From a bacterium (GTDB lineage Bacteria > AUK180): a stretch of DNA of 64,000 bases. The DNA lies in NCBI GenBank assembly GCA_023144005.1, contig JAGLGN010000031.1, positions 27,086-91,085 on the forward strand, read 5' to 3'. Numbering within the stretch: position 1 is the stretch's first letter; each line of letters begins with the position of its first letter. The translations under genes were made by a program, and so were the position numbers. This document shows positions 58,684 through 63,749 of this stretch, in pieces. Below the pieces are notes generated by a model. It saw only the letters and a list, made by a program, of their open reading frames with translations, had not been told where the DNA came from and searched no databases.

Positions 58684-60717
58684 TTATTCTACTATCTTGA
58701 TCAGGCCTTTGACCATATCTTCCAATTGCGCGATCTTGTCGGTGAGGAAGTTGGCCTGATTAACGATCTCGCTGTTCTTCTGCTTCACATCCTCAAGGCC
58801 TACGGTGGTACTGGTCACATCACTGAGTATCAGCGAAAGATCACCCATTGTTGACTTCAAAGTACTAAGCTGCCGGCTGAAATCGTGATTCTCCTTGATG
58901 GAATCGGTGATCATCTTCTCCACATAACCCTTCAAGGTGCCTACAACGGTCTCCGCCTCATCTGAGGTTTCTGACTGCTTTTTGAAGCTGTTATCCAAAC
59001 TGACAATAAGCTCTTTAATAGAATTAATGGTCGTTGTGGTTTCATATATATTCTTTTCTGATTTATTGACGAGTTCTTTGATATTATTGGCTACAACCGC
59101 GAAGCCCTTGCCCAATTCTCCGGCGCGGGCGGCTTCGATAGCGGCGTTAAATGAAAGGATATTCGTTCTTTCGGAAATATCTGTCAACTTAGCCAATGTC
59201 ATATTGATGCTCTCAAGTGACTCGAAAAGTTCCTTCACGCGCAGATGAGCTTCATCAACACTTGAAAAAATAAGTTTCAGTATGTCCATGGTCTCAAAGA
59301 AGCGGTTGTTCGTCATTTCAGCGGAATCGGCATTCTCTTCGATCCTGGCATTGATCTTTTCGATATTTTTGTCGATCATCACTTCGTTCTTGGCGATCTG
59401 GCCGATCCTTTCATTCAATTCATTGTTCTTAGAGGCGAATCCAGTCAATTTGTCATTTACCTGATTTACTTCTTCTTCGATCTGAATATATGATTGTCTT
59501 ACGGTCGCCGCAAGCTCCTGCACATTCATCAGAACATTCTTCACTTCTCCCGATTGCTTCTGAAGTTTGTCATTGATGATGGTATTGTTTATTATCAGGG
59601 CCAATTGTTTGGAGAGCTCCCTGAAAAGTTCTTTCAGGAACTCATTGAAATAATACTTATTATTGGATTCAAGATCGATGACACCGACAACTTTCTCATT
59701 GAATATCATGGGTATTGTCAATTCCGAACGAATACCTTTGACGCCCTCGTAATAATCCTTTTCCTTGGAGATATCCGGAATGTAAATAATTCTCTGCTCA
59801 TCAACGCATCTCCCGATCACACCTTGTCCGAAAGGCAATGTGTGAATATCATCAAAAAGCAATTCGCATGGTTGACAAACCTTTAGGATGTTCACTTCCT
59901 TCTCATTATCAGTAAGCCATATGGAGATAAAATGTATCTTGTAATTTGCCAATATGGCATCAATGATCTCTCTAAGCTGATCATTTAGCGAAGATTTTTG
60001 AATAATCCTCCCCATCATCGTCAGCAGAAGCTCATACTTCTTTCGCGTTTCAAGGTAATTGGTGAAATACTGCAGAAGCATCATCATTAGTGAGAAAATA
60101 ATTACAAAAAGGATTGCTCCTGTAGTTTGAAGATTCTGTGAGAAATAGAAATAGCCGGTGGTAAAGATCAGTGAGGCCAGAAAGAGAATTACAAAGGAGA
60201 TAAGGTCTCTCATGAAATGTGTTCTGGAGTACTTCTGACTGATCACAACGAAGGTCATATTCGAGATCTGTCTCATGATCAACACGGTCAAGGTCAATAT
60301 GAAGAGATACTTGAACGCTCCTGAAAGGTTTTGAAATACTATGATATCGCGATAATTCGAATAGACAAGGTCCCCGACAACAGCGGAAGCGGAAATAATG
60401 AACACCCTGCGCAAGATGTTAGGGAAAGGGATCTTGCGTAAGGCATCGAAGGTAATATAAGCGGTGAGAAGGATCAGTACGGGAAAATAAATGTTTTCGA
60501 AAACCAGAAATATTCCAAGAAGAGGAATGATCTCCGGGGTCAATGTGATATTGCCTCCCGCCATTTTTACATAGAATATCGCATAGGGAATAGAAAACAA
60601 GAGGACCAGCACGTATTTGAGCAAGGAGTCTGCCCCGTTGCCCCCTATCTTTGTCACCATAAAAACGATAAAGGCAAGATTAAAAATTAGTGTTATTGGG
60701 AATTTTTTTATTCTCAT
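58684..60717 (-). CDS. chemoreceptor-like protein with membrane N-domain and GAF
   Basis: A 677-aa protein. Residues 1-225 hold about six or seven TM helices with short loops. A GAF domain covers about 240-385 ('PFGQGVIGRCVDEQRIIYIPDI', 'GIRSELTIPMIFNEKVVGVIDLE'). The rest is a methyl-accepting coiled coil whose tip reads 'TNILSFNAAIEAARAGELGKGFAVVA', the conserved CheA/CheW contact hairpin. There is no periplasmic ligand domain, so it senses a membrane or cytoplasmic signal. No che genes are in the window. It follows the lipoprotein gene by about 20 bp. Confidence 0.9.
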   Translation of the reverse strand: MRIKKFPITLIFNLAFIVFMVTKIGGNGADSLLKYVLVLLFSIPYAIFYVKMAGGNITLTPEIIPLLGIFLVFENIYFPVLILLTAYITFDALRKIPFPNILRRVFIISASAVVGDLVYSNYRDIIVFQNLSGAFKYLFILTLTVLIMRQISNMTFVVISQKYSRTHFMRDLISFVILFLASLIFTTGYFYFSQNLQTTGAILFVIIFSLMMMLLQYFTNYLETRKKYELLLTMMGRIIQKSSLNDQLREIIDAILANYKIHFISIWLTDNEKEVNILKVCQPCELLFDDIHTLPFGQGVIGRCVDEQRIIYIPDISKEKDYYEGVKGIRSELTIPMIFNEKVVGVIDLESNNKYYFNEFLKELFRELSKQLALIINNTIINDKLQKQSGEVKNVLMNVQELAATVRQSYIQIEEEVNQVNDKLTGFASKNNELNERIGQIAKNEVMIDKNIEKINARIEENADSAEMTNNRFFETMDILKLIFSSVDEAHLRVKELFESLESINMTLAKLTDISERTNILSFNAAIEAARAGELGKGFAVVANNIKELVNKSEKNIYETTTTINSIKELIVSLDNSFKKQSETSDEAETVVGTLKGYVEKMITDSIKENHDFSRQLSTLKSTMGDLSLILSDVTSTTVGLEDVKQKNSEIVNQANFLTDKIAQLEDMVKGLIKIVE

Positions 60718-60737: not shown

Positions 60738-61292
60738 TTAATATATTTCAAGTATTTTGACCCAAAAATATCCTTCTTTTTCTAATTTCAGGATAGCGTC
60801 AGACGGGTAACTGACCCGATAGGATTGTGGATAACGACCCGTAAATACAGATAGCTCCGTTGCTCTTCCTTTTGTGAACTCCAAACGGGCAACTTCCTTA
60901 TTGCCTCTTATATACGAATAGAATATTATTTCACCCCAATCGGTTCTGAGAAGATCATCCAGGTTCAAAGATAGAAGTTCCTCCAAAAGGTCTCTTGGCA
61001 GATCATCGGGTATATTCGACTTCTCAATGTCATTCAGGTCGATCTTCTGTGAAGCGCCTGTAAGGGGATGATAAACGATCAATGTGTGTTTTATCAGGTC
61101 CAGTTTAAAGGAAATGGCGACAGGGAGCCCTTCAGTGCTGCCCATCTTTCCGGATAGGGTCTTTTCCTTTACCGTTGAAATTATTCTGTCCATAAGCCGG
61201 TCATGGTCCGCAAGGGTCAATTTCAATGTACAACCGGTGAAAATACTTAATAATAATGCGGAGGTAAGAAAATATTTGATCAATTTAGTCAT
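60738..61292 (-). CDS. hypothetical lipoprotein
   Basis: Start set at the ATG at 61292 (SD AGGA), 8 bp inside the end of the Fe-S gene, giving 184 aa; the longer frame to 61376 lacks a signal sequence at its start. 'KYFLTSALLLSIFTGC' is a lipoprotein signal with Cys at residue 20. The mature part is beta-rich ('FKLDLIKHTLIVYHPLTG', 'DWGEIIFYSYIRGNKEVARLEF'), reminiscent of LolA/LolB-like lipoprotein-carrier folds, but I cannot assign it. Confidence 0.65.
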   Translation of the reverse strand: MTKLIKYFLTSALLLSIFTGCTLKLTLADHDRLMDRIISTVKEKTLSGKMGSTEGLPVAISFKLDLIKHTLIVYHPLTGASQKIDLNDIEKSNIPDDLPRDLLEELLSLNLDDLLRTDWGEIIFYSYIRGNKEVARLEFTKGRATELSVFTGRYPQSYRVSYPSDAILKLEKEGYFWVKILEIY

Positions 61293-61854
61293 CCGGATCC
61301 TGCTCATAATAATATTTTTGCTCAAACTCGCCTTCCTTCGAAAAATACCTTTCCATATACGAAGGGAGCGGACCACTCTGATCTTTTACAAAATTTATTT
61401 CGTATTCCTTTGAGAAATACTGCCTGTACTTGTACAGAAAGAGAAATAAAAAAGGTTCATTCGTTTTTATGATCTTAATTGAAGGGTCAAATCCCAACCC
61501 TTCCAAGGCCTCTTCCAGGCCGCTCACTTCAGTCCAGAGCAATTCGCTTGACTTAAGAGATAACATTCCCTTTTCTGCTATGGGTACTGTCTCGGCGCGA
61601 AAGAATGATTTAGGCCAATATTTAAGCAGTAGATACCCGGAAACATCTATCTTCAAAGGGCATTGGTCGATACAATTACCGCAATATGAGCATACCAGCA
61701 GCCTGTCATCGTGTATTCCTTCGCGCATAACTATGATCTTTCCGCGTACGGAGAACACCTGGTCCAATTCCTTCTCGTATAAAGGGCAATCATACATACA
61801 CTTGCCGCAGTAAACGCACTTTTCAATATCAATATTCTCTTCAAAGTGGAGCAT
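61285..61854 (-). CDS. 2x[4Fe-4S] ferredoxin-like protein (GlpC/HdrC-type N-terminus)
   Basis: A 189-aa protein with two cysteine clusters, CVYCGKCMYDCP (from residue 13) and CSYCGNCIDQCP (from residue 55), each able to hold a [4Fe-4S] centre. The ~120-residue C-terminal part has no CCG motif, so it is only the ferredoxin half of GlpC/HdrC-like proteins. It overlaps the Fmt-fusion gene by 14 bp and is translationally coupled to the lipoprotein. The electron partners are not visible. Confidence 0.75.
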   Translation of the reverse strand: MLHFEENIDIEKCVYCGKCMYDCPLYEKELDQVFSVRGKIIVMREGIHDDRLLVCSYCGNCIDQCPLKIDVSGYLLLKYWPKSFFRAETVPIAEKGMLSLKSSELLWTEVSGLEEALEGLGFDPSIKIIKTNEPFLFLFLYKYRQYFSKEYEINFVKDQSGPLPSYMERYFSKEGEFEQKYYYEQDPDD

Positions 61855-63247
61855 TGATATACCTCATTAGAACATCGGTCAGAGCACCCGGGCAGGATGT
61901 CCTTCTGGACTTCGCGAGTTCACCGTGTGAAAATATTCCTTTTATCGTCGCTCTCTCCTTCAAATTCCTGACAAGCGTGAGAAGAGAGTCGATTTGACGG
62001 GCCGACGGCAGATCAAGGTCGAAATCCCCGATAAGGGCTATACCGAGATTTCCCTGATTCTCCCCTTTTACATGAGCGCCGGGATCCACTGGAAATCTTC
62101 CCTTAAATATCTTCCCATCCCTGCCAATCAAGAAGTGATACCCTATGGAATCCCAGCCTCTTTTCAAGTGCAGTGCAGTGACCTGCCGAATAATTTCCTC
62201 GTCGGACTTTCTGCTGTCATTGAATGTATTGGTGTGATGCAATGTAATGCGGTCGAATATCTCACACCCTTCTAATTGCGGTATTTCGCTTCTTTTCGCG
62301 GGATCGGTCATTGTCAGTATATCACCAATATCAATATTCTTACCATTAATAAAATCCCTTGCTGCCATTGCGGCCTTCCCGAAGGGCTTAACCTCATGAA
62401 CTGCAATACTGCCCTTCCCCGTGCCGACTTCAAAATGATCCTTGCTCAATGAAAGTATCTGCCCCGGAAAAAAGTCACCTTCTGTTTTACAAACGGTAGA
62501 GTGAATAAATTTGATCTCACGGCCCGCAAGAAATGAAAAAGCTACGGGCCAGTCTGAAAAAGCTCTGATATGATTAACTATTTCAGTCGCGGGCTTGAGC
62601 CAGTTTATCCGGCCGTCTTCCCTGTCAAGAAGCGTTGTGTAGCAGCATTGTGAATGATCTTGCGAGACCCGGCATTCAATATAGTCCTCTAATTTCAGAA
62701 GGGTTGAATGAAGGGCGTTCTTGGCAAGATCCGTCAATCTCATTTCCAATTGTGAGTAGCTCTCTTCGGGATGGATCTTAATGCTTTTTTGAAAAAGGAT
62801 ATCCCCTGAATCCAGCTTCTCATTCATCTCGATCAGAGTGATTCCGGTTTCTTTCTGTCCGTTCCAAAGCGCGAAAGTGATAGGTGAAGCGCCCCTGAAG
62901 CGGGGAAGCAGTGAATAATGCACATTGATGGGCACCAATCTTGGAATAAGCAATATCTCCATAGGAATAATGCGGCCGTAAGCGATCACCACAAAGACAT
63001 CAGGGGTCCAGGACCTTAATTGCTCAGCCATTTCATCATCCATCAATTCAGGAGTAATGCAGGGTATGTCATTGTCCAAGGCATATTGCGCGACCGGAGT
63101 TTCAGTCATGATACGCTTTCTACCAAATGGCCTTGCGGGTTGGGATACCACGCCGGTAATATTGAATTCTTTATTATCTAAGGATTCTAAGATCTCCTTG
63201 GCGACATGAGGGCTGCCCCAGAATACAATATTGAGATCAGTTCTCAT
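61841..63247 (-). CDS. fmt: methionyl-tRNA formyltransferase fused to an AmpD/PGRP-type amidase
   Basis: A 468-aa fusion without signal peptide. Residues 1-205 are the formyltransferase domain with catalytic N108, H110 ('NVHYSLLPRFRGASPI') and D146 ('MNEKLDSGDIL'); about 206-312 is the usual Fmt OB domain. Residues about 328-468 are an N-acetylmuramoyl-L-alanine amidase (PGRP/AmpD/T7-lysozyme fold) with zinc ligands H337 ('ITLHHTNT'), H441 ('FSHGEL') and C452 ('SCPG') and catalytic Y370 ('IGYHFLIG'). Fmt formylates initiator Met-tRNA. The amidase would face the cytoplasm, as AmpD does in muropeptide recycling. Follows def with an 11-bp overlap. Confidence 0.92.
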   Translation of the reverse strand: MRTDLNIVFWGSPHVAKEILESLDNKEFNITGVVSQPARPFGRKRIMTETPVAQYALDNDIPCITPELMDDEMAEQLRSWTPDVFVVIAYGRIIPMEILLIPRLVPINVHYSLLPRFRGASPITFALWNGQKETGITLIEMNEKLDSGDILFQKSIKIHPEESYSQLEMRLTDLAKNALHSTLLKLEDYIECRVSQDHSQCCYTTLLDREDGRINWLKPATEIVNHIRAFSDWPVAFSFLAGREIKFIHSTVCKTEGDFFPGQILSLSKDHFEVGTGKGSIAVHEVKPFGKAAMAARDFINGKNIDIGDILTMTDPAKRSEIPQLEGCEIFDRITLHHTNTFNDSRKSDEEIIRQVTALHLKRGWDSIGYHFLIGRDGKIFKGRFPVDPGAHVKGENQGNLGIALIGDFDLDLPSARQIDSLLTLVRNLKERATIKGIFSHGELAKSRRTSCPGALTDVLMRYINAPL

Positions 63248-63749
63248 TCTTGTATCTTCTTTTAAGTTCCTTTAGGCCGGAATTGACCTTTATCCTTTCC
63301 ACAGGAGAAAGCCTGTGGATGAAGAGAAGCCCCTGTAAATGGTCATATTCATGTAGAAAGACCCTTGCGTTAAAGCCCTCCAGGTCTTCCTCTTTTAATT
63401 CCCCTTTCTCATTATAATAACGCACTCTGACCTTCTCGGAGCGTTCCACTTTGGCAAAAATCTCAGGAACGGAAAGGCAGCCTTCTTCGAAAGTAGCATT
63501 TTCTTCTGATGAGGAAATTATTTCGGGATTAATAACAAAGCGTTTGATCCCATCGGAAATATGTGAAGTATCAAAGCAGAAAAATCTCTCATTGATCCCT
63601 ATCTGAGGGGCGGCAAGGCCCATCCCGTCTTTTTCTTTCATTAGAGGGTAGAATTTTTCAACAAGAAATTCCTTGAACTCCTCAGTGATCTCTTCTACCG
63701 GCTCACTCATTATCTTAAGTCTGGGATCAGGATAAACTACGATTTCCAT
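63237..63749 (-). CDS. def: peptide deformylase
   Basis: A 170-aa metalloenzyme that removes the N-formyl group from new proteins. All three motifs are present: 'GMGLAAPQIG', 'EEGCLSVPE' and 'HEYDHLQG'. Length is typical. The ATG at 63749 has no SD; the promoter predicts that transcription begins at or next to it. Confidence 0.95.
   Translation of the reverse strand: MEIVVYPDPRLKIMSEPVEEITEEFKEFLVEKFYPLMKEKDGMGLAAPQIGINERFFCFDTSHISDGIKRFVINPEIISSSEENATFEEGCLSVPEIFAKVERSEKVRVRYYNEKGELKEEDLEGFNARVFLHEYDHLQGLLFIHRLSPVERIKVNSGLKELKRRYKNEN

Follow-up and report, generated by a model that had tools for sequence, protein, structure and literature searches.

Formyltransferases in which a second enzyme follows the OB domain are known from ArnA, ALDH1L1 and HypX. 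The gene described here shares this arrangement, but none of the three is a methionyl-tRNA formyltransferase or has an amidase as its partner. It lies in a 64,000-nucleotide stretch of contig JAGLGN010000031.1, which is referred to below as the window. In this gene, the formyltransferase is a methionyl-tRNA formyltransferase (Fmt) and the second enzyme domain is an amidase of the PGRP fold. Consistent with the initial annotation, which knew of no description of the fusion, we found no report of it in the literature searched, which comprised open-licence papers. The gene, its parts and its neighbours are as follows.

58684-60717, minus strand: membrane-anchored GAF and MCP-signalling protein, 677 aa, the next gene after the group (domain search)
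60738..61292, minus strand: small lipoprotein-like gene, no Pfam match, last of the group
61285..61854, minus strand: 4Fe-4S dicluster (FeS) protein, 189 aa (Fer4_8), the start of which overlaps the 3′ end of the fusion by 14 bp
61841..63247 (stop included), minus strand: fmt-amidase fusion gene, 468 aa, ATG start, frame uninterrupted
61844..62257, minus strand: Amidase_2/PGRP-fold domain of the fusion, residues 331-468 (Pfam 3e-15; fold match)
62258..62329, minus strand: linker of the fusion, residues 307-330 (~24 aa), of low identity and near-constant length
62330..63247, minus strand: methionyl-tRNA formyltransferase part of the fusion, residues 1-306 (TIGR00460 over cutoff; Foldseek match to 2fmt)
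63237..63749, minus strand: def, peptide deformylase (Pep_deformylase 7e-49), upstream, the 3′ end of which overlaps the start of the fusion by 11 bp

A membrane N-terminus similar to that of the GAF protein also follows the lipoprotein in two further genomes, G001 and G004.

According to Pfam, the fusion protein comprises Formyl_trans_N (residues 6-182, 1.5e-41), Formyl_trans_C (residues 207-304, 6e-25) and Amidase_2 (residues 332-454, 3e-15), the last with 57.1 bits against a gathering score of 26. The Fmt part scored 234.3 bits with the NCBIfam equivalog TIGR00460 (fmt), for which the curated cutoff is 201.5. Both its N and OB domains were present, its catalytic residues N108, H110 and D146 were invariant across four fusion proteins, and the arginine of the tRNA loop, R43, was kept. 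In the amidase part, the zinc ligands H337, H441 and C452 and the catalytic Y370 were invariant in the four fusion proteins, and remained so across six proteins, fused and standalone. AmpD has an aspartate where the amidase of the fusion has its zinc cysteine. T450, the threonine before this cysteine, was not retained in one of the fusions (G003) or in the sister family described below, so that catalysis by the amidase is not assured.

No signal peptide was apparent on reading the N-terminus of the fusion. The fusion was the sole Fmt found in the genome, where the only other match was a 214-aa frame that matched weakly and partially, as other formyltransferases do. Its Amidase_2 domain was also the only one found; a search of the genome for a separate Amidase_2 or ampD gene, which the initial annotation had named as a check, returned none. 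These data bear out the initial description of the gene as a continuous-frame fusion of the housekeeping fmt, with def directly upstream, to an amidase, in which the catalytic residues of both halves are intact and no signal peptide is apparent.

A second check, the occurrence of the architecture elsewhere, was positive: the same uninterrupted fusion was present in four assemblies that represent three genera, all within one family. The protein in the window was 95% identical to that of a congener, and 42% and 39% identical to those of the two other genera. Three of the fusion carriers (JAGLWT010000025, CALMGJ010000028 and JAGGYO010000236) are publicly deposited MAG contigs, each from a different project, and the last bears the isolate name AUK180. 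AUK180 is also the name of a GTDB phylum, Candidatus Uvuciota, which is known from sediments of the deep sea and of marine hydrothermal sites (PMC11382960) and to which the window probably belongs. Outside the family, the fusion was found neither in 386 genomes (E 1e-75), nor in a contig scan of 84,980 species, nor in amidase-first searches of 193 genomes, nor in viral contigs or plasmids; these scans were pattern- or threshold-limited, such that an unrelated, independent fusion could escape them. In G002, of the same family, def, fmt, the amidase and the FeS gene were absent all together, which we read as an assembly gap and not as a loss.

Between genera, identity was 39-43% in the Fmt part, 41-53% in the amidase part and 13-22% in the linker, with 34-35 residues separating G302 from H337. 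For the two closest species, dN/dS was 0.17 in the Fmt part and 0.25 in the amidase part, and synonymous change was in significant excess in both (p 9e-7 and 0.014, respectively). Judged from these rates, purifying selection acts on both halves. The fused Fmts formed a supported clade (100/99). A single-copy housekeeping enzyme has kept a wall-hydrolase domain while three genera diverged, which implies that both activities have long resided in one molecule.

An AlphaFold2 model of the full-length fusion had a mean pLDDT of 84.5, with lower values in the amidase half, for which four sequences were available. The Fmt part of the model superposed on the E. coli Fmt-tRNA complex 2fmt (Foldseek, TM by target 0.93). 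Modelled alone (pLDDT 72), the C-terminal half matched PGRP-SD, clostridial LysC and PGRP-LB at Z 15-16, T7 lysozyme at Z 13.2 and AmpD (2y2c) at Z 11.9; phage and clostridial endolysins (6srt, 7f5i and 6su5) were also among the nearest solved structures. PGRPs, LysC and T7 lysozyme outranked AmpD by sequence as well as by fold, and no NCBIfam family matched the domain. Of the AmpD/PGRP-type assignment originally given, the PGRP part therefore stands, and the AmpD identity was rejected on the ranking and the missing NCBIfam match. By sequence and modelled fold, the nearest relatives of the amidase domain are animal PGRPs, T7 lysozyme and endolysins.

We also examined the cell-wall genes of the phylum. 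PBP transpeptidases were encoded in all seven genomes and SLT transglycosylases in five of the seven, and wall fragments are therefore expected. AmpG and AnmK were each found in none of the seven, which are draft MAGs, and permeases other than AmpG are possible. A NagZ-like GH3 without a signal peptide was present, scoring 137.5 bits against the NagZ model cutoff of 207 and carrying an altered motif; from its sequence, it looks like a divergent cytoplasmic NagZ. The motif reads KHF/YFGYG...DPH in the family and KHFPGHG...DSH in the sister-family genome G006. This enzyme, the family's only GH3 (L092:1504-2403, in G000 C28; also L089, L090 and L091), is encoded directly after an rlmN-like gene. 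As AmpG and AnmK were not found and the NagZ-like enzyme is divergent, these genomes do not establish peptidoglycan recycling along the AmpD route, and the recycling part of the earlier proposal lacks support.

In a sister family of the phylum, the amidase has a gene of its own, encoding 164-170 aa without a signal peptide, and the gene order is recJ, amidase, 4Fe-4S protein, lipoprotein. The FeS gene of this cluster is homologous to that which follows the fusion (profile match, prob 97%). The lipoproteins of the two families had only their position in common, and their comparison established no homology. Among the sister genomes, fmt was detected in one, G006, where it stands unfused behind def. 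Two features of these clusters were observed in passing. The FeS protein of the fusion-bearing family (189 aa) is without the C-terminal cysteine-rich (CCG) half seen in the sister family (~290 aa; L093:1242-2111). The sister-family RecJ (744 aa; L093:2603-4834, minus strand, in G006 C75; also L036:1953-3368) contains a complete DnaQ-type 3′-5′ exonuclease (RNase_T, residues 223-378) between DHH and DHHA1.

Because the other bacteria examined encode Fmt and the amidase separately, we infer that the fusion is the derived state. In the simplest history, a rearrangement in the ancestor of the family would have put def-fmt ahead of the amidase-FeS pair, and loss of the fmt stop codon would then have produced one frame in a single gene-fusion event. 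Small trees neither united the sister-family amidases with the fused ones in a supported clade nor resolved the source of the fused Fmt or amidase.

Overall, the fusion probably arose once, in an ancestor, and yielded a bifunctional cytoplasmic protein of two independent enzymes, with the amidase acting on soluble muropeptides. The N-terminal part would formylate Met-tRNAfMet, and the C-terminal zinc PGRP-type amidase would cleave the MurNAc-L-Ala bond of soluble wall fragments that reach the cytoplasm. With a flexible linker between them, the two would operate without cross-talk as parts of a single chain, which would ensure their production in equal amounts and place their translation beside that of def. 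Independence of the two enzymes is favoured because the linker is poorly conserved, and cytoplasmic cleavage of muropeptides by a non-AmpD route is preferred because a signal peptide is missing from the standalone relatives too. Against this explanation stand the failure to find AmpG and AnmK, a GH3 that lacks KHFPGHG and scores below the cutoff, the incomplete conservation of T450 and the missing joint amidase clade.

It is unlikely that the C-terminal domain keeps the fold and zinc site and targets another amide, or acts as an endolysin-like autolysin released on lysis. The endolysins among its nearest solved structures are consistent with such a role, as is the failure to find AmpG and AnmK. 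However, no phage genes occurred among the neighbours examined, the standalone sister genes lie in a conserved cluster, and the domain shares its purifying selection with a housekeeping enzyme.

Somewhat more doubtful still is a direct adjustment of initiator-tRNA formylation by a domain that senses or cuts wall fragments. Here the amidase/PGRP domain would be a sensor, and the binding or cutting of muropeptides would alter Fmt activity or access of the tRNA, so that wall turnover tunes formylation and is linked to translation initiation. PGRP-fold domains are often ligand sensors. T7 lysozyme, a close relative by fold, has a double role: besides its amidase function, it inhibits T7 RNA polymerase (according to the title of 1lba). 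The persistence of the fusion across genera in which it is ~40% identical also accords with a sensor. By contrast, the unconserved linker gives no sign of a tuned interface, and the catalytic residues, all of them retained, would be needless in a pure sensor.

The gene might also give rise to two proteins, through internal initiation or proteolytic cleavage of the linker, in which case the fusion would have no meaning at the protein level. The linker is indeed variable and probably flexible, and ATG codons occur at 294 and 313 in G000 and G001. However, no start codon in the linker was common to the four fusions, and codons 291-345 of G003 included no ATG, GTG or TTG at all. An internal start, which the initial annotation had named as a potential refutation, was rejected on these grounds, and we regard two separate products as very improbable. 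The other potential refutation, a sequencing error that removed a stop between residues 312 and 328, can be dismissed together with assembly error, chance and frameshift: although all are drafts assembled from metagenomes, the frame is open in each of the four genomes, which include independently assembled ones of other species and of which three are public records, each from a different project.

If the two independent enzymes of the preferred explanation do not communicate, the locus shows cleanly how operon rearrangement can lead to gene fusion; if they do, it would provide a direct physical link between wall turnover and translation initiation. With respect to known systems, the N-terminal part resembles TIGR00460 Fmts, including E. 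coli Fmt (2fmt), in being full-length, in keeping the catalytic Asn, His and Asp and the tRNA-loop Arg, and in lying beside def. Unlike these enzymes, it is followed by 160 further C-terminal residues that hold a second enzyme domain. That domain has the fold of PGRPs, T7 lysozyme and LysC (1oht, 1lba and 6ssc; Z 13-16), with their His-His-Cys zinc site and catalytic Tyr. Unlike them, it is without a signal peptide, is not a lysis gene and forms the C-terminal half of a housekeeping enzyme. With AmpD, a cytoplasmic anhydro-MurNAc-L-Ala amidase, it shares the superfamily fold and an apparently cytoplasmic location, whereas it is more distant from AmpD than from PGRPs and its AmpG and AnmK partners were not found. 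The parts themselves are known; what is new here is the pairing of a wall amidase with the only Fmt of the genome, a housekeeping enzyme.
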